DNA from: Pseudomonadota bacterium
GTDB taxonomy: Bacteria; Pseudomonadota; Alphaproteobacteria; Puniceispirillales; Puniceispirillaceae
Assembly: GCA_027620495.1 (NCBI GenBank)
Contig: JAQCEA010000004.1
Coordinates: 1 to 64,000 of the forward strand
Direction: 5' to 3'
DNA: 64,000 nt
In this document: piece by piece, positions 881-37,365 of the stretch
Layout: the number at the start of each line of letters is the position of its first letter
How positions within the stretch are numbered: the first letter of the stretch is position 1
Program-made: the position numbers and the translations under genes
Notes under the pieces: generated by a model
What the model was told of the DNA's origin: nothing
Seen by the model: only the letters and a program-made list of their open reading frames with translations
Database searches by the model: none

Positions 881-2296
881 TTATTGGTCTTCATCTGGGC
901 GGGTGCCAATGGTAATTGTCGGCATCGACGATGCCGTGCCATCGGCCTGTAATTCTGGGAATTTGCTTTGACTAAATTGGATACGAAATTCTGATCCGAC
1001 ATCTGATGAACGGCTGAGTTTCAAAATGCTATCTTGTGCCAGTGCCAGATCCCGGGCAATTGTCAGCCCCAGCCCGCCACCGCTTGATTGCCGGCTTTTG
1101 AATGGTGAAAATAATGTTGGCCAGCGATGGCGCGGAATGCCCGAACCATTATCGCTGATATCGAATATGGCCAGATGACCAGCCCGCCAGATTTCTATGG
1201 TCAGCTTGCTTGCCCCGGCCGCCCCGGCATTACGCCCTAAATTAAGCAAGATACGAAACATCATGCCGCGATCCGCATGCATGGTGGTTGGTCCGCTAAA
1301 ATCAATATCTAAAAGTGTTGCGGTCTTTACCTCTTCCAACAGGTTGATCAGGTCAAAATCGGCATAAACCGGGGCTGATGTCTGTGCCAGATAATCCAGC
1401 ATGGATTGGCATAAATCGACAGCCTGTTGCAATGACCGCAACACCAAAGGGGCCGATTTACGCACATTGTCGTCATCAGATGCCAGCAGGGCGTCACTCA
1501 CCAGCGTGGCTGAACTCAACACATTGCGGATATCATGGTTGATTTTGGCAACACCTTCACCGATTTCGGCGAGTCTTTCACGATGCTGCAGGGTGCGCAC
1601 CATATTAAGCTGTAACAGTTCTAATGCTTGCACAAGTTCGGCAAAATTTCGCGCCGCCCGCATCAATACCGGCATAGGCTGGGTCACAGTCGGGTCATCC
1701 GCCATCATATAAATGGTTTTAATCAGATCACCGATCAGCCGCTGTTCTGCCCGTCTTACAAATAACAGGCCAATGGTGATGATGAGCGGTACAGCCAAAA
1801 ATATGGCAAGCAACAGGACAAAGGAATAATCCATCGCATCATGTAAAATTTGCGATCTATCAATGATAAAGCTTGCTTGTTCATCGTCAAACGCGCCGGT
1901 AAGGGCGATGGGCCCTGAACGAATCGATGTGACCAGCGCGGCTGTTTCGTCAAACGCAAATAACGCATGATAATGCGCTGTATCAAAAGAAGTGATCGCG
2001 TTTCGCGGCATTTCATCTGGCAGGGGTGCCACACCAATGACATGCGTCCTGCCATTTTGGGTATAGGTGATTTCATATAGGTCAAAATTGCCTAGCCGGC
2101 TGAAATGGTCGGATGGCGGGGCGGCGTCATGTGCATGCAGCTCGCGCTTAAAATCATCGGCGATATTGACCCATGCCCGTTCCAGCATATAGCAGTAAAA
2201 CATTGAAAAAGAAATAACGGCGCCAATGGCAATGGTGCTGATCACGGCGACAGCAAATAACAGGGGGCGATGAACGATCAGCGGGTCAATGCGCAC
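881..2296 (-). CDS. Orphan membrane sensor histidine kinase
   Basis: 471 residues. One membrane helix at about 12-36, a periplasmic domain to about 155, and a second helix at about 157-180 give a classic periplasmic-sensor topology. A dimerisation/phosphoacceptor helix around residues 240-270 contains the H-box core NHDIRN. The ATPase domain shows an N-box NLGRNAGAAGA near 350, a G1 box DNGSGIP and a G2 box GGGLGLTIA. It should autophosphorylate and pass phosphate to a response regulator, but no regulator is adjacent, so the partner is unknown. The periplasmic domain matches nothing I recognise. The start is the ATG at 2296. Confidence 0.9.
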   Translation of the reverse strand: MRIDPLIVHRPLLFAVAVISTIAIGAVISFSMFYCYMLERAWVNIADDFKRELHAHDAAPPSDHFSRLGNFDLYEITYTQNGRTHVIGVAPLPDEMPRNAITSFDTAHYHALFAFDETAALVTSIRSGPIALTGAFDDEQASFIIDRSQILHDAMDYSFVLLLAIFLAVPLIITIGLLFVRRAEQRLIGDLIKTIYMMADDPTVTQPMPVLMRAARNFAELVQALELLQLNMVRTLQHRERLAEIGEGVAKINHDIRNVLSSATLVSDALLASDDDNVRKSAPLVLRSLQQAVDLCQSMLDYLAQTSAPVYADFDLINLLEEVKTATLLDIDFSGPTTMHADRGMMFRILLNLGRNAGAAGASKLTIEIWRAGHLAIFDISDNGSGIPRHRWPTLFSPFKSRQSSGGGLGLTIARDLALAQDSILKLSRSSDVGSEFRIQFSQSKFPELQADGTASSMPTITIGTRPDEDQ

Positions 2297-2601
2297 AAAT
2301 TTACCTCACGAATGGATGTTACAGCCGTCACACGCATGCCGGTTTGGTGCGGCCAGAACATGGTGCTGGCACTGGTTCCATCATAGGGGGGTTAGCAATT
2401 CACACCTAATCAACCAGCCGATAACTGTAATAGTCTGTCAGCTGGCCGGTTGGCATCACGTAATTGGCGCAAAATCATATCATTTGCGCCATTTTAGCCA
2501 TCTGGTTCACTGCAACGCTGGCAAATGGGGGGGATCTGTACCGGTCTTACAAACCCCCGGTCTTTTGCACGTTTTTGCCGGGCCAGATGATGCGAATAGC
2601 A
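2297..2601. other. Intergenic region between sensor kinase and rpmH promoter
   Basis: Divergent spacer of about 300 bases. It contains one clear palindrome (2466-2490, listed separately) and the short GC-rich inverted sequence CCCGG...CCGGG around 2550. No open frame here has coding character. The start-proximal half must hold the promoter of the minus-strand kinase, which was not resolved. Confidence 0.4.
2466..2490. other. Perfect 8-bp inverted repeat (hairpin or operator)
   Basis: GGCGCAAA at 2466-2473 and TTTGCGCC at 2483-2490 form an 8-bp perfect stem around a 9-base loop. It lies about 170 bases upstream of the kinase start and 110 bases before the rpmH promoter. The following ATTTTAG is a weak T-run, so it could be a poor terminator for upstream transcription or a protein-binding site. 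The sequence does not decide between these. Confidence 0.4.
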
Positions 2602-2630
2602 TTGACAGGTCGGGTTTTGCGGCCTATACC
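2602..2630 (+). promoter_or_regulatory. Sigma-70-type promoter for the rpmH operon
   Basis: TTGACA (2602-2607), a 17-base spacer, then TATACC (2625-2630): a perfect -35 and a near-consensus -10 at ideal spacing, 48 bases before the rpmH start. It should drive rpmH-rnpA-yidD-yidC and possibly yihA. Confidence 0.75.
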
Positions 2631-2677
2631 CCGCTTCAGCTAATTAACAGGTAAACAACTTGCAAAGGAGCGTTCAG

Positions 2678-2812
2678 ATGAAACGCACCTATCAGCCAAG
2701 CGTATTGGTACGCAAACGTCGTCATGGATTCCGCTCTCGGATGTCTACCGTTGGTGGTCGCCGGATATTGCGGGCACGTCATGCAAAGGGTCGTGCGCGC
2801 CTTTCTGCTTAG
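2678..2812 (+). CDS. rpmH: Large ribosomal subunit protein bL34
   Basis: 44 residues beginning [20 protein letters not shown] and ending ARLSA, very basic, matching bL34 over its whole length. It is a structural protein of the 50S subunit. The start ATG has a strong Shine-Dalgarno AAAGGAG eight bases upstream. It heads the conserved rpmH-rnpA-yidD-yidC cluster and sits 48 bases downstream of a near-consensus promoter. It is too short for ordinary ORF calling. Confidence 0.97.
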
Positions 2813-2845
2813 ATGCAGCGATGCCAGTCGAGGGATACCTGAACG

Positions 2846-3208
2846 GTGTCTAAACTCCAGTCCATGCCAGCGCGCCGGGATTTTTTGCAGGCTAGAAATC
2901 AAGGTCAAAAGGCACTCGCACGTGGCTTGGTGATTCAAGCCACAAACCGCGATTCAGACATTTGGCGTGTTGGCCTCACCGCATCAAAAAAAATAGGAAA
3001 TGCCGTGTGTCGGAACCGTGCTAGGCGCCGTATGCGCGCTTTGGCACGCCAGCATCTTGCCCCGTTGGCCCGCCCGGGTGTTGATTATGTGCTGATTGCA
3101 AGGCATGACACTGTCAGTTGTGACTGGCAGGACCTTGTTACGGGCCTTACAAAAGCCATTCGGTATTTGCATCATAAATTGCCAGACCAAGACCCGGTGT
3201 CATCATGA
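2846..3208 (+). CDS. rnpA: Ribonuclease P protein component
   Basis: 120 residues, basic, the protein subunit that helps the catalytic RNA remove 5' leaders from tRNA precursors. The family signature is present in the middle: GLTASKKIGNAVCRNRARRR at about 63-82. The listed start is GTG at 2846, giving MSKLQSMPARRDFL. The internal ATG at 2864 (MPARRDFL) is a credible alternative because homologues often begin close to that motif. The stop codon overlaps the yidD start by four bases, so the two are translationally coupled. Confidence 0.93.
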   Translation: MSKLQSMPARRDFLQARNQGQKALARGLVIQATNRDSDIWRVGLTASKKIGNAVCRNRARRRMRALARQHLAPLARPGVDYVLIARHDTVSCDWQDLVTGLTKAIRYLHHKLPDQDPVSS

Positions 3209-3492
3209 TGAAACAGATGATGCAGACAGTCAGCACAGTGCTGCGCGTATGTTTGACCGGTTTGATCCAGCTCTATCAATTCTTTCTGTCACCATTATTG
3301 GGGGCGAATTGCCGGCATTTGCCAAGCTGTTCGCACTATGCAAAAGATGCGTTAAACATGCATGGCCCCTTGCGCGGATCATACTTTGCATTAAAACGTA
3401 TTCTGCGATGCCATCCATGGGCCGAACCCATGGTTGACCCAGTGCCGTCGCCATTAAAAAAACCGACGCCCGCCGTAAAAGCTAAAGGTTGA
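3205..3492 (+). CDS. yidD: Membrane protein insertion efficiency factor
   Basis: 95 residues of the YidD family, a small amphipathic protein at the inner membrane that assists YidC-dependent insertion. The conserved core is clear: SPLLGANCRHLPSCSHYA around residues 28-45, then RCHPW and VDPVP near 69-80. There are three conserved cysteines. The start is the first ATG of an ATGATG pair overlapping the rnpA stop. It ends four bases before yidC. Confidence 0.93.
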   Translation: MMKQMMQTVSTVLRVCLTGLIQLYQFFLSPLLGANCRHLPSCSHYAKDALNMHGPLRGSYFALKRILRCHPWAEPMVDPVPSPLKKPTPAVKAKG

Positions 3493-3496
3493 ATCA

Positions 3497-5251
3497 ATGA
3501 CTCCCGAAAATCGTAATCTTATTATGGCCGTTGCCTTGTCGATGATTGTGTTGCTGGGCTGGCAGATGCTTGTCATTCAACCAGAGATGGAACGCGAAGC
3601 GGCCGAACAAGAACGAATCGCCGCCGAAATGGCAAAATCTGGCACAGCGACCCAAGCAACCGGCCAGCCAAGCGTGTATGCGGCAAACGGCACCCCCACC
3701 ATAGGCGGAAGCGCGGCGACGCCGAAAGCTGTTGAAACCGCCAAGCGGATTGTGATCGACGCGCCTTTGGTGCGCGGGTCATTTTCGGTGCGTGGGGCGC
3801 GTCTCGATGATGTGATTTTGACGGGTTATAAAGAATCGCTTGATGACGATTCGGACAATATTCACTTTTTGCAAAAAACCGGCTCTGACATGCCGTTCTT
3901 TGCTGAATTTGGATGGTCGTCATCTGACGCGAACCAGCCGATGCCCACCGCCGATAGCTTATGGTCTGCCGACCGTGATGTATTGGCGCCATCATCCCCG
4001 GTCACTTTGACATGGGAAAATGGCCAAGGGCTGACATTCACCCGCCGGATTTCGATTAATGACGATTATCTATTCATCTTTGAAGATTCGGTCACAAGTA
4101 CATTGGCCGGTGATATCACGCTCTATCCATATGGTCTGGTGCGCCGCCATGGGACACCAGCCACCACCGGCATGTATATCTTGCACGAAGGCCCATTGGG
4201 TGTGTTTGATGAGACCTTGAAAGAAGAAGATTACAGCGATTTACGTGATGCCGGGGCAAACGGCATTAAAGTGATACCTGAAACAGCTGGCGGTTGGGTG
4301 GGAATCACCGACAAATATTGGCTGGCCGCCTTATTGCCTACACAGACCAAAGGCTATAATTTTGGCTTTCAGTCTCTAGCTGGAAATAGCGATCGCTATC
4401 AGGTTGATTTTATTGACCCGAACGGGATGTTGCTGACCAATGGCGGTGTCGTCACCAGCGAGAGCCGGTTATTTGCCGGGGCCAAAAAAGTGGCACTGCT
4501 TGATTATTATGCCGACCAATTAAAAATTCCGAATTTTGATCTGGCGATTGATTTTGGCTGGTTCTATTTCCTGACCAAACCATTTTTCTATGCGATCAAT
4601 TGGTTGTTTGGTGTTTTTGGCAATTTTGGTCTGGCGGTGCTTGGCTTTACCGTCATTGTAAAACTCATCTTCTTCCCACTTGCCAATAAATCATATCGGT
4701 CTATGGCGAAGATGCGGTTACTGGCACCAAAACTGCAAACGCTTCGCGAGCGGTTTGGTGATGACCGTATGAAGCTGAACCAGGAAATGATGGCGCTTTA
4801 TAAAGCTGAACAGGTCAATCCAGCGGCTGGCTGTTTGCCAGTTTTGTTGCAGATTCCGGTGTTTTTTGCGCTGTATAAGGTGTTGTTTGTGACAATTGAA
4901 ATGCGGCACGCGCCATTTTTCGGCTGGATCGCTGATTTGTCAGCCCCTGATCCAACATCAATCTTTAACTTGTTTGGCCTGTTGCCCTATTCGGTATCAT
5001 TCTTGCCACCTTTCTTGCAGCTTGGCGTTTGGCCGATTTTGATGGGCATTTCAATGTTCCTGCAAATGCGGTTGAATCCAGTGCCACCTGATCCGATCCA
5101 AGCCAAGGTGTTTCAATTCATGCCCATTTTCTTTACCTTCTTGCTTGCAACATTTCCGGCTGGTCTGGTGATTTACTGGACATGGAACAACCTGTTATCA
5201 ATGGCACAGCAATGGTTCATCATGAAACGCGTGGCCCGCGGCGAGACATAG
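3497..5251 (+). CDS. yidC: Membrane protein insertase YidC
   Basis: 584 residues, the length of a proteobacterial YidC. An N-terminal membrane helix (about 8-27) is followed by a low-complexity linker and the large periplasmic beta domain (about 80-345). The conserved five-helix insertase domain lies at about 355-575, with the cytoplasmic coiled region MAKMRLLAPKLQTLRERFGD at about 402-421 and the NPAAGCLPVLLQIPVFFALY segment around 437-456. It inserts and folds inner-membrane proteins with or without SecYEG. The start ATG follows yidD by four bases. The 3' end overlaps the next gene. Confidence 0.97.
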   Translation: MTPENRNLIMAVALSMIVLLGWQMLVIQPEMEREAAEQERIAAEMAKSGTATQATGQPSVYAANGTPTIGGSAATPKAVETAKRIVIDAPLVRGSFSVRGARLDDVILTGYKESLDDDSDNIHFLQKTGSDMPFFAEFGWSSSDANQPMPTADSLWSADRDVLAPSSPVTLTWENGQGLTFTRRISINDDYLFIFEDSVTSTLAGDITLYPYGLVRRHGTPATTGMYILHEGPLGVFDETLKEEDYSDLRDAGANGIKVIPETAGGWVGITDKYWLAALLPTQTKGYNFGFQSLAGNSDRYQVDFIDPNGMLLTNGGVVTSESRLFAGAKKVALLDYYADQLKIPNFDLAIDFGWFYFLTKPFFYAINWLFGVFGNFGLAVLGFTVIVKLIFFPLANKSYRSMAKMRLLAPKLQTLRERFGDDRMKLNQEMMALYKAEQVNPAAGCLPVLLQIPVFFALYKVLFVTIEMRHAPFFGWIADLSAPDPTSIFNLFGLLPYSVSFLPPFLQLGVWPILMGISMFLQMRLNPVPPDPIQAKVFQFMPIFFTFLLATFPAGLVIYWTWNNLLSMAQQWFIMKRVARGET

Positions 5252-5892
5252 ACGATCTGGAAACCGGCCGGTTGCTGTTTGCTGGCAGTTGCGAATTTAT
5301 CGCCGCTGCCAATAATATGAAAGCGCTGCCGCCGGTTACCGTGCCAGAAATTTGTTTTGCCGGGCGGTCTAATGTCGGCAAATCATCTTTGGTGAATGCC
5401 TTGACGGGGCGGCGCATGCTGGCCCGCACATCGCAAACACCGGGGCGTACCCGTCAATTGATCTTTTTCAATCTGGCAAACCGGCTGCAACTGGTTGATT
5501 TGCCGGGGTATGGCTATGCGGCGGCACCAAAAACAGACATTAAGGCATGGACCGGACTGACCCGTAAATTTCTGGCGGGGCGGCCATCGCTTCAGCGCGT
5601 TTTTCTGCTGATTGACGGCCGCCGCGGTGTTGGTCGTTCAGACGAAGAAATAATGCAGTTGCTTGACGATGCGGCGGTATCTTGGGCGGTGGTGTTGACA
5701 AAATCAGACAAATTAAAGCCAACACAGATAGAAAAAACTGTCAAAGACACACATACCAAAATCAGCCGCCATGTGGCCGCCTATCCGGAAATATTTATAA
5801 CCTCATCAGAAACAAAGGATGGTATCGAATATTTACGGGCGCATATGGCCGGATTTGCCGCCCCGAAATCCACCCATCCAAATAACCCATAA
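5182..5892 (+). CDS. yihA: Ribosome-biogenesis GTP-binding protein YihA/EngB
   Basis: 236 residues from this start. It is a TRAFAC GTPase needed for 50S subunit assembly and cell division. G1 is GRSNVGKSSL near residues 61-70, G3 is DLPGYGYA near 110-117, and G4 is TKSDK near 173-177. The ATG at 5182 overlaps yidC by 70 bases; the ATG at 5212 is an equally possible start giving 226 residues. The residues common to homologues begin around GRLLFAGSCEF, so the first 28 residues are uncertain. Confidence 0.93.
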   Translation: MEQPVINGTAMVHHETRGPRRDIDDLETGRLLFAGSCEFIAAANNMKALPPVTVPEICFAGRSNVGKSSLVNALTGRRMLARTSQTPGRTRQLIFFNLANRLQLVDLPGYGYAAAPKTDIKAWTGLTRKFLAGRPSLQRVFLLIDGRRGVGRSDEEIMQLLDDAAVSWAVVLTKSDKLKPTQIEKTVKDTHTKISRHVAAYPEIFITSSETKDGIEYLRAHMAGFAAPKSTHPNNP

Positions 5893-6000
5893 CTGGCAGA
5901 TAAATGATCGGCACTTGCGCTATTGTGCGGATTGCCGATAATCAGCCAGTTGCGTCATATGCGTTTTCACCAACTGGCGTTAAATAAAAAGGCTTTAGTC

Positions 6001-6921
6001 ATGACTGTGACAGATGAACAAACACATCAAAATCTGATGATGAAAACCGGTATGCTGGTTGAGGCCCTGCCTTTTATGCGCCGCTATTCGGGCAAAACTA
6101 TTTTGGTCAAATTTGGCGGACATGCCATGGGCAAGTCGGATTATGTTGCGGCATTTGCATCTGATATCGCGCTGTTAGATCAGGTTGGCGCGCGCCCGGT
6201 TGTGGTGCATGGTGGGGGGCCACAAATTGGCGAAATGCTGGACAGATTAAAGATTGAATCCAATTTCATTGATGGCTTGCGGGTAACAGATGAAGCCACC
6301 ATTTCGGTTGTTGAAATGGTGTTGGCTGGCGGCATTAACAAAGCGCTTGTCGCGGCCGTGACGAGCGCCGGCGGGCGGGCTGTTGGCGTATCTGGTAAAG
6401 ATGGCGGCCTGATTACCGCACGCAAACTGATGGCAACGGCAAAACAGGCCGATAGTGCCATTCAAGATGCGATTGATCTTGGATTTGTTGGCGAGCCATC
6501 TTCGATTGATGTCACTGTGCTGGATGCGTTAATGCAGCATCATTTGATCCCGGTTGTTGCCCCAGTTGGCCGTGGTGAGGATGGCAAGACATATAATATC
6601 AACGCCGATACCGCGGCAGGTGCGATTGCGGCGGCGCTTCATGCCACCCGAATGTTGATGCTGACTGATGTCGCCGGTGTGTTGGACAAAAACGGTGCGT
6701 TGATCCCGGCATTGACGGTCAGCGAGGCTGAAGCCTTGATCAAAGACGGCACTGTAAAGGGCGGGATGATCCCGAAAGTTGAAACATGCGTCGATGCGGT
6801 ACGGGGCGGTGCTGAAGCGGCCGTGATCATGGATGGTCGTGCGCCCCACGCGTTGCTTGTTGAATTATTTACCGAACATGGCATGGGTACCATGATCAAA
6901 GCCGATGAGGAGGTATCATGA
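6001..6921 (+). CDS. argB: Acetylglutamate kinase
   Basis: 306 residues from ATG 6001, which has AAAAGG eight bases upstream. The open frame extends back to 5923, but that extra stretch does not look like the family. ArgB phosphorylates N-acetylglutamate in arginine synthesis. The nucleotide-binding segment VKFGGHAMG (about 36-44) and the substrate loop [13 protein letters not shown] (about 67-79) are both visible, as is the C-terminal [11 protein letters not shown]. The position after yihA is a common alphaproteobacterial order. The stop overlaps the next ATG (ATGA). Confidence 0.95.
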
Positions 6922-7604
6922 CGCAACCAATGGCACCGATAACAGATTTTCCAACCAAAATGATCAATGATTGGATTTTTGATCTGGATAATACGATTTA
7001 CCCAGCACGCACCAATTTGTTTTTGCGGGTGGCTGTGCGTATTACCGAATTTGTGGCGAATCATTATCTGGTGCCGCATGACGAGGCACGCGTTATTCAA
7101 AAGGATTTGTTCCATCGCTATGGCACCACAATGCGCGGCATGATGACCGAAGAAGCGATCTGCCCTGATACCTATTTGAATTTTGTGCATGATATTGATC
7201 TGAGCGATATGCCGCTGGATCAGGAACTTGACCGGATGATTGGTGCGCTGCCCGGCAGAAAACATATTTTTACAAATGGCACCGTCCCGCATGCCGAAAA
7301 TGTCCTGAATGCGTTTGGCATCCGCCATCATTTTGACCAGATTTTTGATATTGTTGCGGCCGATTATATCCCCAAGCCGGAACAGCATGCCTTTGATCAA
7401 TTTATGAAAAAAACTGGTATTGATCCCACCGGTGCGGTGATGATCGAAGACATGGCGCGCAATCTGCAACCCGCGGCCGCACTCGGCATGCGGACTGTAT
7501 GGCTTGATAGTGATATCGAATGGGCCACCCGCGGTTCAGATTCAGATTATGTGCATTATCGTGCTGATGATCTAAAAGGGTTTTTGGCGTCGGTAGCGGC
7601 GTAA
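6918..7604 (+). CDS. HAD-family pyrimidine 5'-nucleotidase-like hydrolase
   Basis: 228 residues. HAD motif I is FDLDNTIYP (about 20-28) with both catalytic aspartates. Motif II is FTNGT (about 116-120), motif III is the lysine of DYIPKPEQH, and motif IV is [10 protein letters not shown]. The FDLDNTLYP form and overall layout match the SDT1-type pyrimidine nucleotidases that dephosphorylate UMP/CMP. The substrate is inferred, since other HAD phosphatases share the motifs. It has a strong Shine-Dalgarno (GGAGG) and a four-base overlap with argB. Confidence 0.88.
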
Positions 7605-7711
7605 CAACAAAAGTAAAATCCGGTATCGAACAGACAGCTATTGTTTTTTTGGCGGTGTGATGCCACATCGGCTATAACATTAATCTAGTGCCGGACATGC
7701 AGGAGATAAAA

Positions 7712-8572
7712 ATGGATTTGGCCCAACTCGAAACTGAAATCAATGCCGCGTGGGATAACCGTGATGCGGTAAATGCCGACACCAAAGGTGCCGTGCGTGA
7801 AGCTGTTGTCGAGGCGCTTAACCTGCTTGATAGCGGCAAGGCCCGGGTTGCCGAGCCAACCGGCAATCATCAATGGGTTGTAAATCAATGGTTGAAAAAG
7901 GCTGTACTCTTATCGTTCAGGCTGAATGATATGCAGCTTATTCCAAGTGGTACAAATTATGTGGGTGCAGGCGAGTCAGCATGGTGGGATAAGGTCGCAC
8001 CGAAATTTAGTGGTTGGGATGAAGCCCGTTTTCGCGAAGCTGGATTTCGCGCGGTGCCGGGGTGTGTGGTCCGCCATTCCGCCTATGTTGCGCCCGGCGT
8101 GGTGATTATGCCCGGCTTTATCAATTTGGGTGCCTATGTTGATCGCGGTACAATGGTTGATACATGGGCGACGGTTGGGTCTTGTGCGCAGATTGGTAAA
8201 AATGTGCATCTTTCCGGCGGTGCTGGCATTGGCGGCGTTTTAGAACCGCTTCAGGCAGGCCCGGTCATTATCGAAGATGATTGTTTTATCGGCGCGCGTT
8301 CAGAAGTCGTTGAAGGTGTTGTTGTGGAACAAGGCGCGGTTTTGTCGATGGGTGTGTTTATTGGTGCCTCGACAAAAATTGTTGATCGCGAAACTGGTGA
8401 AATTCACATTGGACGTGTGCCAGCCTATTCGGTTGTGGTGCCGGGTAGCCTGCCCGGTAAACCGCTTGCCGATGGCCGCCCCGGGCCATCTTTGTCTTGT
8501 GCTGTGATCATCAAAAAGGTTGATGAAAAGACCCGCGCTAAAACATCTGTTAATGATTTGCTTCGAGATTGA
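7712..8572 (+). CDS. dapD: Tetrahydrodipicolinate N-succinyltransferase
   Basis: 286 residues. It transfers succinyl from CoA to tetrahydrodipicolinate in the succinylase branch of lysine/diaminopimelate synthesis. A left-handed parallel beta-helix of hexapeptide repeats is evident at about 100-220 ([20 protein letters not shown] and similar). The start was placed at ATG 7712 ([10 protein letters not shown]), six bases after AGGAG; a GTG at 7688 in the same frame is less likely. It is directly coupled to dapE: its TGA overlaps the dapE ATG. Confidence 0.95.
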
Positions 8573-33843: not shown

Positions 33844-33880
33844 CGGTTTTGCAGGCGGGTGCGTTTTGATGATGTGCCGT

Positions 33881-33910
33881 TTGGCCGGGTTTGGCCGGGT
33901 TTGGCCGGGT
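33881..33910 (+). repeat. Three tandem copies of a 10-bp unit
   Basis: The unit TTGGCCGGGT occurs three times in a row without mismatch, beginning 38 bases after the hemY stop. It lies in non-coding sequence before the tRNA-Thr promoter. Probably slippage-prone. Confidence 0.9.
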
Positions 33911-34106: not shown

Positions 34107-34180
34107 GCCGGATTAGTTAAATGGCATAACAGACCATTCGTAATGGTTAGTTGGGGGTTCGATTCCCTCATCCGGCACCA
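34107..34180 (+). tRNA. tRNA-Thr (anticodon CGT), with encoded CCA
   Basis: Acceptor GCCGGAT (34107-34113) pairs with ATCCGGC (34170-34176), followed by A and CCA. The D arm is GTT...AAC, the anticodon stem GACCA/TGGTT has loop TTCGTAA (anticodon CGT), and the T arm is GGGGG TTCGATT CCCTC. It decodes ACG. The last 14 bases are part of the left attachment repeat of the adjoining element, which therefore used this gene's 3' end as its target and left it complete. Confidence 0.93.
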
Positions 34181-34184
34181 GTTT
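34167..34184 (+). repeat. Left attachment site (attL core)
   Basis: CTCATCCGGCACCAGTTT, the end of tRNA-Thr and four to seven bases beyond it. Identical to 35484-35501. Confidence 0.85.
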
Positions 34185-34209
34185 TTCACAAAAAGAGCCG
34201 AGGTTCGAG

Positions 34210-34226
34210 GTTCAAGTCTCTGAATT
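34210..34226 (+). repeat. Left copy of 17-bp inverted repeat (putative arm site)
   Basis: GTTCAAGTCTCTGAATT, the exact reverse complement of 35443-35459. It begins 25 bases inside the left att core. Confidence 0.8.
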
Positions 34227-34266
34227 CCTTTAATTAACGTTTTAGGAACGACAGGGGCTGTAGACA

Positions 34267-35415
34267 ATGGTGTATACAAGGTCACCAGATTATCTATACC
34301 GCCGGAATGGCATCTATTACTTCACACGCAATGTACCATCAGATTTAAAGGCTCGGTTCAACAAGGGCCGTGTGGTTGTGTCTTTGCACACACGGTCAGA
34401 GGTTAGGGCGCAGAGAGCAGCTTCGGCTCTATCTGATCGGCTCGAGAGATACTTCGAATCGCTTAGGCTGGAACGGTTTCATTCACAAGAGCTTGGCCTG
34501 AAGTTTGGCGGTGTTCCAGATGCACCGTTAGATAGTGCGGACACGAATATCAGCGATGCACTGGAACTTTACATCAGGCTCAAAGGCGCAGGGCGAGACC
34601 GCCTATTCGCCAAAACATCAACGCGCAATGTCGGCTACCTAATAGAATGTATTGGTGATGTTGGGTTATCATCAATTAAGCCGGTAAATGCTGGTCAGTT
34701 CAGAGACCATCTCATTGCTAAGGGTTTGGCATCAACTTCAATCAGGCGTGTTCTGTCGTCTGTTAAGGCTATCTATAACCTAGCCTCTACAGAGCTTGGC
34801 ATAGCCAACCCCAATCCTTTCTCAGGGATATTCATCCCAGAGGATAATGCCGCCAGTGGGAGGCTGCCCGTACCACTGGATGCCATCCGGTTAATCCAGC
34901 ATGAGTGCTTTCAAGTTGATGACCCTCAGCGTTGGTTGATCGCAGTCATAAGTGATACTGGCATGAGATTGTCAGAAGCTGCAGGTCTCCTGACTGAAGA
35001 CATTAAACTGGATGCAGATGTGCCCCACATAACACTCCGCAAGCACCCGTGGCGGTCATTGAAAACGGCTTCTAGTGAAAGAGATATTCCATTGGTGGGG
35101 AGCGCGTATGAAGCGGCAATAAGGATTGTCGATGTAGGTCATAAATATGCTTTTGCCAGATACTGCGACGAGACGAAGTGCAATGCCAACTCTGCTAGCG
35201 CTGCTTTGAATAAATGGCTTAAACAAAGGATACCAGAGGGCTGCGTTATCCATAGCTTTAGGCATAGTTTGAGAGATAGGTTAAGGGCAGTTGAATGCCC
35301 TTGAGACATCATTGACGCCATCGGCGGTTGGACAACTGCTGGCATAGGCCATAAATATGGAAGTGGTTATGATCTTGCCGTTAAGTATCGGTGGATGAAG
35401 ATGCTGGAGGGATAA
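34267..35415 (+). pseudogene. Tyrosine recombinase (phage-type integrase) with one in-frame TGA
   Basis: Reading from ATG 34267, 345 residues are open to TGA 35302-35304; the same frame then continues 37 codons to TAA 35413-35415. The N-terminal SAM-like DNA-binding part has YLYRRNGIYYFTRNVPSDL. The catalytic domain shows the arginine in DTGMRLSEAAGL (about 237-248), a lysine in LRKHPWR and HSFRHSLRDR (about 330-339, H-x-x-R). After the TGA come IGGWTTAGIGHKYG, which includes the second histidine, and a tyrosine-containing tail, so the terminated product lacks the nucleophile. AGG/AGA arginine codons are frequent, unlike the flanking genes, a sign of foreign origin. It is probably inactive unless the stop is read through. 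Confidence 0.88.
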
Positions 35416-35442
35416 ACCAAGTTCAGAGAACGAAGATTCCAT

Positions 35443-35459
35443 AATTCAGAGACTTGAAC
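35443..35459 (-). repeat. Right copy of 17-bp inverted repeat (putative arm site)
   Basis: AATTCAGAGACTTGAAC, exact reverse complement of 34210-34226, ending 24 bases before the right att core. The near-equal offset on both sides is the main evidence for a recombinase-binding role. Confidence 0.8.
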
Positions 35460-35483
35460 TTGCCTGAGGTAGGCATCGAACTT

Positions 35484-35501
35484 CTCATCCGGCACCAGTT
35501 T
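35484..35501 (+). repeat. Right attachment site (attR core)
   Basis: Second copy of the 18-bp core. Upstream bases GGCATCGAACTT weakly resemble the tRNA T arm, so this side looks like a decayed tRNA-Thr 3' end. The next gene's stop codon is 13 bases away. Confidence 0.85.
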
Positions 35502-35513
35502 CCGCTAACGCTG

Positions 35514-36308
35514 TTATTGAAATTGATATGCAGATATTTTGGCGCCCAAAACAGTATCATTGAAATCAATCATGCTTTTGCCGCCAGTTGCAGCGCCCGC
35601 GATCACATGAAGTGGCATCAAATGTTCTTCTCTGGGGTGGCAAAGCCGTGCAGATGGGGCCGCCGCCCAGTTTAGCAATGCTGCTTCTCTTTGTTCAGAT
35701 GGCATCAGAATGCTGTTAGAAAGCCAATTATCAAACGCATCTGAGCCTATCACCTCTGTTCTTCCCATTAACGCACCAACATCGTGGTAACTCATACCAG
35801 AGCCAATGATCAACACACCTTGATCACGCAATGGTTGAAGCAACCTTCCAACTTGCAGATGCGTCTTTGGTGACAGGGTCGGACAAAGCGACACTTGAAT
35901 AGTGGGAATGTTCGCCTCGGGGAAAGCAAGCAACAGTGGAATAAAAATGCCATGGTCAAACCCTCGGTCTTCATCCACCGCACATGCAATGCCACCATCA
36001 TTCAGAATGGCGGACATTTGATTGGCTAAATCCCTGTTTCCTTTGGCGGGCCACTTCAATTCATAGGTATGAGGGGAAAACCCATGGTAGTCATATATCA
36101 GTCCGGGGTTTGGATTGCCGGTAACTTTGATTGTGTCTTCTTCCCAATGTGCTGAAATAACGATGATGGCTTTGATGTCATCACGCACATTATTTGCAAA
36201 TGATTTGAGATATTGCGCCATTCCATCCCAGACGCCTTTTGGATGCCAATCCATAAAAAAGCATGGGCCACCACCATGCGGGATGAAAAAAGTTGGCAAT
36301 CTTACCAT
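35514..36308 (-). CDS. Class III extradiol (LigB/DODA-type) dioxygenase
   Basis: 264 residues from ATG 36308 (MVRLPTFFIPHGGGPC); GTG and ATG codons further upstream also keep the frame. Matches the 4,5-DOPA dioxygenase/YgiD group: the metal histidine in FIPHGGGP, a second in VVISAHWEED (about 57-66), DHGIFIPLLL (about 125-134) and the late GSGMSYHD (about 168-175). These enzymes open catechol-type rings using Fe(II) or zinc; the substrate is not evident. It lies just outside the right att site, and its codon use is more AT-rich than the housekeeping genes, so it may be part of the same acquired patch. Confidence 0.85.
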   Translation of the reverse strand: MVRLPTFFIPHGGGPCFFMDWHPKGVWDGMAQYLKSFANNVRDDIKAIIVISAHWEEDTIKVTGNPNPGLIYDYHGFSPHTYELKWPAKGNRDLANQMSAILNDGGIACAVDEDRGFDHGIFIPLLLAFPEANIPTIQVSLCPTLSPKTHLQVGRLLQPLRDQGVLIIGSGMSYHDVGALMGRTEVIGSDAFDNWLSNSILMPSEQREAALLNWAAAPSARLCHPREEHLMPLHVIAGAATGGKSMIDFNDTVLGAKISAYQFQ

Positions 36309-36469
36309 CTGGTCTACCCACATCACTTGCAACACCTAACAATGCTTCAATTACTACAGAGGTGTCATATGATTTGTTGGGCAGATGGTGCCGGATGAGG
36401 TTGTATGTTTCCTATTATCGGTACCAGCCCAGTACGTAACTGAAACTATCCATAGAATCTCATTTGTAA

Positions 36470-36673
36470 CTGCATAGGTCAACACGCTGTTTTGGTTATC
36501 TCGTGGTTTGGCCCGATGCCGCCTCTTTTATCGACCGGCCGCGCGATTTGGCGGCTAGGTGCCAAAAAATAATGCGTTCATCTGATCCCATCACCCATCT
36601 GCATGTGATGCGCGATTACGCACCAAAAAAATTGGCCGAAATTGAAAGTTTGTGCAATTATTTTTTAAAATAA
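36470..36673 (+). pseudogene. Unidentified coding remnant (C-terminal fragment)
   Basis: One frame stays open for 67 codons ending at TAA 36671-36673 and reads like protein: LVVWPDAASFIDRPRDLAAR and then DPITHLHVMRDYAPKKLAEI. It has no upstream start; an in-frame stop precedes it at 36467. An internal ATG at 36572 would give a 33-residue peptide without a ribosome site. I do not recognise the family. It is likely the tail of a lost gene next to the broken carbonic anhydrase. Confidence 0.35.
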
Positions 36674-36783
36674 TGTCTAAAAGTAAATTTTTTCACAAAA
36701 ATTGTATTTTTTTATTCAAATTACAAAAATATTTTGCCATTCACGAGAAAGAGAAATCAAAAACCGTAGATGAGGTCAATAAA

Positions 36784-37365
36784 ATGAGCAAAATCGTCAC
36801 GGAAATCGTAGAGGCGAATAAAAAATATGCCGCTAATTTTGGCGACAGGGGGAATCTGGCGCTGCCGCCAGCCCGCGGATTTGCGATTTTAATCTGCATG
36901 GATGCCAGGCTTGACCCTGCCCAATATGCCGGGCTTGCCGAAGGTAACGCCGATGTGATCCGCAATGCCGGTGGCCGGGCCAGTGACGATGCCATTCGGT
37001 CCTTGGTCATCTCGCATAAATTGCTTGGCACAAATGAATGGTTTGTTATTCACCACACCGATTGCGGCATGGAGTTGTTTACATCTGACATCATCTCAGG
37101 GCTTCTTTAAACCAGCCTTGAGACGGCCGAAATCACCGCGTCTGGGTGGCAAAATAAATCCACTACAGGCGGCTCAGTTGCGGGAAAATATATCAACTGG
37201 CTGACCTTTGAAAATAACGCAAAATCTGTGGTTGAAGATGTGCAAAGAATACGCAATCACCCATTGGTGCCGAGATATATTCCGATTTATGGCTACATCT
37301 ATGATTGTAAAACAGGTCTTTTGGCAGAGGTGGCTGATGCTTCGGTTGCTGGCCAACCATTATGA
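36784..37365 (+). pseudogene. Beta-carbonic anhydrase with one in-frame TAA
   Basis: From ATG 36784 the frame is open for 108 codons, hits TAA at 37108-37110 and then continues in the same frame 84 codons to TGA 37363-37365. The first part has the zinc site CMDARLDP (about 39-46) and HHTDCGME (about 93-100). The part after the stop still matches the family: [11 protein letters not shown] and [15 protein letters not shown]. Carbonic anhydrase interconverts CO2 and bicarbonate. A single base change would restore a 193-residue enzyme. The AT-rich open frame upstream of 36784 is not considered part of it. Confidence 0.85.

Follow-up and report, generated by a model that had tools for sequence, protein, structure and literature searches.

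The tRNA-Thr locus in the window

The window, i.e. the whole stretch of 64,000 nucleotides analysed here, belongs to a genome assembly of 2.40 Mb in 48 contigs (G000:C47). A tRNA-Thr(CGT) gene with encoded CCA, found by ARAGORN at 34107-34180 on the forward strand, is intact and is the target of integration. A preliminary description of this DNA had pointed out that an 18-bp perfect direct repeat, copied from the end of this intact tRNA gene, brackets a single tyrosine recombinase gene, and these observations have been reproduced in the present analysis. The 18-mer CTCATCCGGCACCAGTTT is present exactly at 34167-34184 and 35484-35501, and no further match with up to two mismatches was found in the window (shuffle mean 0.00). 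The left copy, composed of the 14-nt core CTCATCCGGCACCA and GTTT, is the attL core, and the right copy is attR-like, both on the forward strand; a core copied from the tRNA 3' end therefore stands at both ends of the unit, as in tRNA-targeting integrative elements. An empty site at this locus would read as the tRNA core joined to GTTTCCGCTAACG.

Between tRNA and int lies a P' arm (34181-34266, +) homologous to the P' arms of the loci L034, L035, and L037, and the right direct core is preceded by a P arm (35450-35483, +) of the …GACTTGAACTTGCC…GGCATCGAACTT family. Several features were absent from the preliminary description: an in-frame stop codon in int, remnants of attachment sites reaching to approximately 36507, beyond the right direct core, a third core in inverted orientation (36386-36399, -), and a 17-bp perfect inverted repeat, the left arm of which is within P' (34210-34226, +) and the right arm of which (35443-35459, +) we read as a remnant of an inverted P' arm. 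The core CTCATCCGGCACCA has exactly three copies in the whole 2.4-Mb genome, at 34167 (+), 35484 (+), and 36386 (-), and all of them, two direct and one inverted, are at this locus. Approximately 200 bp before tRNA-Thr, three tandem copies of GTTTGGCCGGGT with 10-bp spacing are found (33879-33910).

The recombinase ORF (34267-35304, +), the one recombinase ORF between the direct repeats, contains DUF6538 (E 1.1e-19) and Phage_integrase (E 4.7e-9) domains and is ended by the in-frame TGA at 35302-35304. The remainder of the frame (DIIDAIGGWTTAGIGHKYGSGY..., 35305-35415, +) matches the conserved C-terminus of relatives and encodes GGWTTAGIGHKYGSGY, i.e. the GGW...GHKYGSGY part, in which G-G-W and the first Y are invariant in 12 aligned relatives and are taken by us as part of the catalytic His/Trp and Tyr region. 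Since this region lies past the TGA, the ORF ends before the catalytic C-terminus of a functional recombinase and an inactive product is to be expected, barring readthrough of the stop or a sequence error at the TGA. In a close relative (G014:C9, 78% amino acid identity over residues 108-343), int is likewise interrupted.

Beyond the right core, an ORF of a LigB-family dioxygenase (35514-36335, -) separates the second core from the inverted one. When read on the minus strand, the inverted core at 36386 shows the order P arm-core-P' arm. Its P side is a remnant (36400-36507, -) with 78% identity over 90 bp (36407-36496) to the P arm of L037, a locus whose P' arm and int start match those of the window (78% over 300 bp), and its P' side (36303-36385, -) resembles the P' arm of another integrase, L099, which adjoins tRNA-Thr(TGT) in the same genome. 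Because the two sides match different integrases, the locus probably contains debris of more than one element. Past int, the window thus retains the core of inverted orientation (36386-36399) and its P remnant, but a foreign P' arm and ligB intervene.

The ligB ORF start sits where an int start would be expected (36250-36399, -), the sequence before ligB resembles the P' arm and int start region of L099, and a similar leader precedes ligB in L011 (G037). For a specific past inversion of the ligB segment, the matches are divided: by in-silico inversion of 35498-36385, the junction matches to L028, L029, and L032 rise from 68, 65, and 65 to 101, 97, and 88 bits, respectively, and that to L108 falls from 87 to 68 bits. 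A carbonic-anhydrase-like ORF (36652-37110), which adjoins the att debris and covers only positions 3-67 of the 156 positions of the Pfam domain, is possibly broken.

Inverted attachment sites around related integrases

The following procedure has been used for related integrases: up to 250 bp upstream of int was aligned to the opposite strand of the downstream sequence, over up to 3 kb, and matches of at least 28 bp were counted. The 145 candidates were reduced to 114 distinct loci by dropping 31 duplicates and to 100 testable loci by dropping 14 with too little flank, as 300 bp after and 100 bp before int were demanded; int matches below approximately 320 residues, the partial loci L144 and L156 (2 of 80), and the window itself were also dropped. 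Inverted copies of core and P' arm enclose int in 78 of the 100 distinct testable relatives, with a median length of 86 bp (30-265) and a median identity of 98.4% (100% in 30 cases), and direct copies were found at two loci. When at least 1.5 kb is present downstream, the inverted copy is found in 50 of 67 loci, and 22 of the 100 distinct loci have no repeat around int, two of which have less than 500 bp, and four less than 1 kb, after int. Among the 55 copies at loci with a tRNA immediately before int, 49 start 13-27 nt within the tRNA 3' end. The tRNAs used in the 100-locus set are Thr, Phe, Leu, Arg, Gly, Asn, and Ser, and tRNA-SeC is used in L355. As a control, 20 loci of PF13356 (P4-type) integrases in the same order, picked from places listed in a search, were analysed under the same settings; no inverted copy was found (0/20), and 15 of these had a tRNA upstream.

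The int of the window is a DUF6538 integrase belonging to the clade of this double-attP family, and it adjoins a tRNA 3' end. Among 20 DUF6538 loci picked from a class-wide search, the repeat was found in five, one of which (L354) is taken as the same as L199; it was missing in six loci with shorter integrases, two of them with almost no downstream sequence, and in all nine with long integrases (499-614 aa). One distant integrase having the repeat is that of G299 (L378), which has 22% identity and uses tRNA-Ser. In a tally of 146 entries, which were not deduplicated and included the window, int points away from the adjoining tRNA in 99 and towards it in two (one locus counted twice), and the remaining 45 have no such tRNA. 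The one locus with the int 3' end facing the tRNA (tRNA-Arg(CCG)) is L133 1698-3970 (= L167), where an inverted core is present and the P' arms are not shared.

Hosts of the family include SAR116, Rhodobacterales, and three metagenome contigs labelled Gammaproteobacteria. A spread of the family on plasmids is unsupported, one plasmid record (Ruegeria sp. TM1040) having been found to carry a family int at an E limit of 1e-40. A phage origin is likewise unsupported; among 55 viral_contigs loci, one matched at 44% and the rest at 31% or less, and two phage records matched at 30%. Contigs end within 1.5 kb after int in 33 of the 100 testable loci, vs 10 with an end within 1.5 kb before int.

The same tRNA site was compared among 61 genomes (one per species, that of the window included), 41 of which have some match when up to five candidate places were scored in each. 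A large island here in related genomes, with the unit as one of its ends, had been named in the preliminary description as speaking against its reading, and two of these genomes, G003 and G011, partly show such a case at tRNA-Thr(CGT). In G003, a single contig of 2.59 Mb, a tandem island with an integrase at its tRNA-proximal end has the order tRNA-core-P'1-int1-[P'1 rc, core rc, P1 rc]-two cargo ORFs-P1-core-P'2-int2-..., where rc denotes the reverse complement; the inverted P1 copies (197 bp) and the P' copies (72 bp) are each 100% identical. In G011, tRNA-core-P'-int is followed by an inverted copy of core and P' (92 bp, 100%) and then by the contig end. Inverted cores are also present in G035 and G022, with more diverged arms, and the contigs of G008, G016, and G026 stop at or near tRNA-Thr(CGT). 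In G005, tRNA-Thr is followed by 2.3 kb to the contig end in which neither core nor int was found, and this is possibly an empty site. In the second element of G003 (L030 9931-15713), the P arms of the inverted site and of the following core differ in type, which would fit an exchange of modules at the core.

Complete elements and their cargo

Intact elements have the order tRNA-core-P'-int-[P' rc, core rc, P rc]-cargo-P-core-flank, in which attL and int are followed by a full second attP that points the other way, then by cargo and attR. The cargo of 11 elements is bracketed by a second inverted repeat consisting of core and P arm (189-2,316 bp, 94.7-100% identical), which overlaps the first repeat by 12-28 bp, approximately the core, in ten elements and by 58 bp in L158. 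Lengths and identities of this second repeat are 358 bp and 99.4% in L081, 281 bp and 94.7% in L158, 255 bp and 96.5% in L166, 189 bp and 99.5% in L196, 394 bp and 99.0% in L132, 291 bp and 99.7% in L324, 213 bp and 98.1% in L327, and 197 bp and 100% in L030. Ruegeria sp. TM1040 has its element (L340 13890-26659) at tRNA-Phe on a megaplasmid recorded as circular; repeats of 85 and 1,148 bp, both 100% identical, enclose a set of type I restriction-modification genes, and both repeat copies contain a gene annotated as BRO family. Ruegeria HKCCA6707 has a P-side repeat of 2,316 bp (99.96%) around type I restriction-modification genes, at the end of which the contig ends, and G299 (L378, reverse strand 1235-8488) has repeats of 160 and 705 bp, both 100% identical. 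The first repeat of L378 extends 47 bp into the int gene. In L371, type I restriction-modification genes lie between long, perfect or near-perfect inverted repeats, which contain a duplicated 634-aa gene without Pfam match.

The second, P-side repeat was not seen in R. conchae (38.5 kb), Pseudooceanicola (19.9 kb), AG-335-B03 contig 5 (19.9 kb), a 37-kb stretch at tRNA-Arg of G003, and L320 and L328 (19.5 kb each), and it is partial in AG-335-B03 contig 8 (83%). A strict test on 46 loci having more than 3 kb of further sequence, a set which is not fully deduplicated, detected it in 9. The two copies in HKCCA6707 differ at approximately one base in 2,316, while 129 bp of one arm is 89% identical between HKCCA6707 and R. 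conchae. Because the copies are near identical within an element and the arm is only 89% identical between species, this suggests that recombination or recent duplication, and not selection on the sites alone, maintains the likeness of the copies.

The cargo of L324 includes a primase-helicase-like protein (AEP-TOTE, DUF5906). A 450-aa protein of phrog_4756, the function of which is given as unknown in PHROG, is present in 17 of the 61 genomes of the family, though not in every case within a demonstrated element; examples are at L166:13353-14699(-), L196:16061-17419, and L081:4463-5809(-). We presume that its DYSQ and HDSF motifs are family-A-polymerase-like, and apicoplast PolA chains are among the top Foldseek hits of its predicted model (mean pLDDT 66), with E 0.03 or worse; tentatively, this protein may be family-A-polymerase-like. 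The recurring replication-type cargo genes would be compatible with, rather than proof of, a replicating circle.

Origin of the unit in the window

With fair probability, the unit is a stump left on the tRNA-proximal side by the decay of an integrative element from the family having int between inverted attachment sites. Because the window has no inverted core and P' arm directly after int, which is the family hallmark, and retains a 17-bp inverted remnant alone, we infer this descent from the arms and the sequence. The right arm reads AATTCAGAGACTTGAACTTGCCTGAGGTAGGCATCGAACTT-core. From the 10-bp motif AGACTTGAAC rightwards, it agrees with the seven other P arms of the window type (L027, L028, L029, L032, L033, L036, and L090), all of which have GGAGTTTTT to the left of AGACTTGAAC. 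The window has AATTCAG at this place, which is what its own P' arm gives when reverse-complemented, and AAGTCTCTGAATTCC is common to the window, L034, L035, and L037 (4/4). The right arm thus looks like a fusion junction of a P arm to a piece of a P' arm. The inverted P' fragment lies at +31 to +47 from the int end, and inverted P' copies begin at +31 in L122 and at +26 in L121. The inverted core with its P remnant (36386-36507) and the pattern found across the family also favour this origin; the complex history of the island, with a P' arm of another int type beside the inverted core and ligB intervening, counts against it.

Most likely, a deletion would have joined the P' arm of an internal inverted site to a P arm at the shared motif AGACTTGAAC, and the simplest route is recombination of a P arm with the internal inverted attP at this motif. 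Such a deletion would have taken out the inverted core beside int together with the cargo and left two direct cores around int, so that an element with inverted cores would have turned into a cargo-less one with direct cores, as initially perceived. No intermediate of this deletion was found in the genomes compared.

The preliminary description had left the choice between a minimal mobile element and a compact remnant. The premature stop and the arm fusion speak for the latter, and the former is improbable. A genuine integrase-only element with attP of P-core-P' and a 1.3-kb circle, which moved as such and has since been inactivated by the stop, is an unlikely origin. The perfect 18-bp direct repeats, the presence of both arms, the lack of any other recognisable gene between them, and the same kind of P-core arm at seven other loci agree with it, and an independent 1.3-kb mobile unit is still conceivable because direct cores and arms persist. 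Against this stand the fusion signature in the right P arm, the inverted attachment site, and in G003 the cargo, of relatives at tRNA-Thr(CGT), and the broken int. Furthermore, the search for the same 1.3-kb unit elsewhere, which had been proposed as a check, detected no second copy in the genome itself and none in 60 related genomes with up to five places scored in each. The unit is a case of ordinary decay, most likely the broken leftover of a tRNA-targeting mobile element, and it matters mainly as a clue to the family to which this stump would belong.

Possible roles of the inverted attP

In intact members, Int would release the element in circular form, carrying a pair of near-identical attP sites in inverted orientation, and re-integrate this circle at tRNA 3' ends; the two sites, predicted from the integrated forms of the 11 relatives above, would split the circle into an int half and a cargo half. 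In the yeast 2-micron plasmid, two identical inverted repeats with the Flp/FRT target halve the circle, and the recombinase gene lies beside one of them. By analogy, we tentatively put forward, as a possibility short of a likelihood, that the unit in the window is the stump of an undescribed bacterial class of tRNA-integrating elements working in a similar way, in which Int would invert the int half relative to the cargo half while the circle replicates and thereby amplify copies, and in which int and cargo modules might be swapped at the shared core. The architecture predicts two attP of identical sequence in the circle and a flip of the int segment. If true, this would give a reason for the copies staying identical, for the exchange of int and cargo modules, and perhaps for the contig breaks after int.

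Two other roles appear less probable. One, which we regard as rather improbable, is that, in a single-stranded form of the element, the inverted pair would anneal to give a double-stranded attP, as in attP(+) of CTXphi, for which two inversely oriented attP sequences are reported to pair within one strand (PMC4246890). The two repeats together do span P-core-P', but P-side repeats of up to 1,148 and 2,316 bp with genes included are more than a folded site should need, and no relaxase or filamentous-phage gene was found in the 20 of 33 cargo ORFs listed for seven elements or in the annotated TM1040 element. The other, to which slightly less weight still is given, is that, while the element is integrated, the int segment acts as a reversible switch owing to the inverted attP. 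Inverted cores of a tyrosine recombinase are expected substrates for inversion, and in vitro inversion of DNA flanked by inverted att sites is reported for Int-pTN3 of Thermococcus (PMC5495485). Free inversion would, however, place int in either orientation about equally, and its orientation is almost fixed (99 vs 2 entries). Since the attP copies are near identical, Int alone should not distinguish them; it follows that elements integrated in reverse are disfavoured by selection, or else that the second copy arises in the course of the cycle.

An origin of the inverted repeats as artefacts, from whole-genome amplification or from assembly, is hardly credible: many SAR116 records have isolate names of the single-cell type and single-cell assemblies can contain inverted chimeras, but the same structure is found in the circular TM1040 megaplasmid record and in the single-contig genomes G003 and G020, and the repeat starts at a constant place near the tRNA 3' end in the 49 of 55 tRNA cases given above.

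Comparison with known systems

No mention of DUF6538, and no description of int between inverted att sites of its own element, was found in the literature searched, which lay mostly outside subscription journals and did not include the original tycheposon paper. The family with double attP looks undescribed, and a prior description elsewhere is possible. If it is real and active, widespread marine tRNA islands carry two inverted copies of their own attachment site, a design which we otherwise know from the yeast 2-micron plasmid.

With tRNA-targeting islands in general, the family shares the int beside the tRNA 3' end, the core copied from the tRNA, and, in the relatives, the order attL-int-cargo-attR; the differences are that the relatives add a complete inverted attP 3' of int and that the unit in the window is cargo-less with a broken int. 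Tycheposons are likewise marine, bordered by tRNAs, and equipped with a tyrosine recombinase and varied cargo, whereas in the portion of text available the recombinase is named xerD and an inverted att site is unmentioned (PMC10872708). Strand-biased circularizing elements (SEs), Tn554, and RIT elements are also tyrosine recombinase elements with inverted terminal sequences, but these, as far as the accessible part of the source describes them, are short repeats at both termini (13-19 bp and imperfect in SEs, 34 bp in RIT), in contrast to a second full attP inside the element of the present family (PMC10214605). CTXphi attP(+) shares the two attP copies of inverse orientation (PMC4246890), but the phage is reported to use the host XerC/XerD, whereas the family's own int lies between the attP copies. 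Likeness of the integrase to Flp is not claimed here, and the family differs from the yeast 2-micron plasmid in that it is bacterial, integrates at tRNA genes, and has int alone in one half of its predicted circle.
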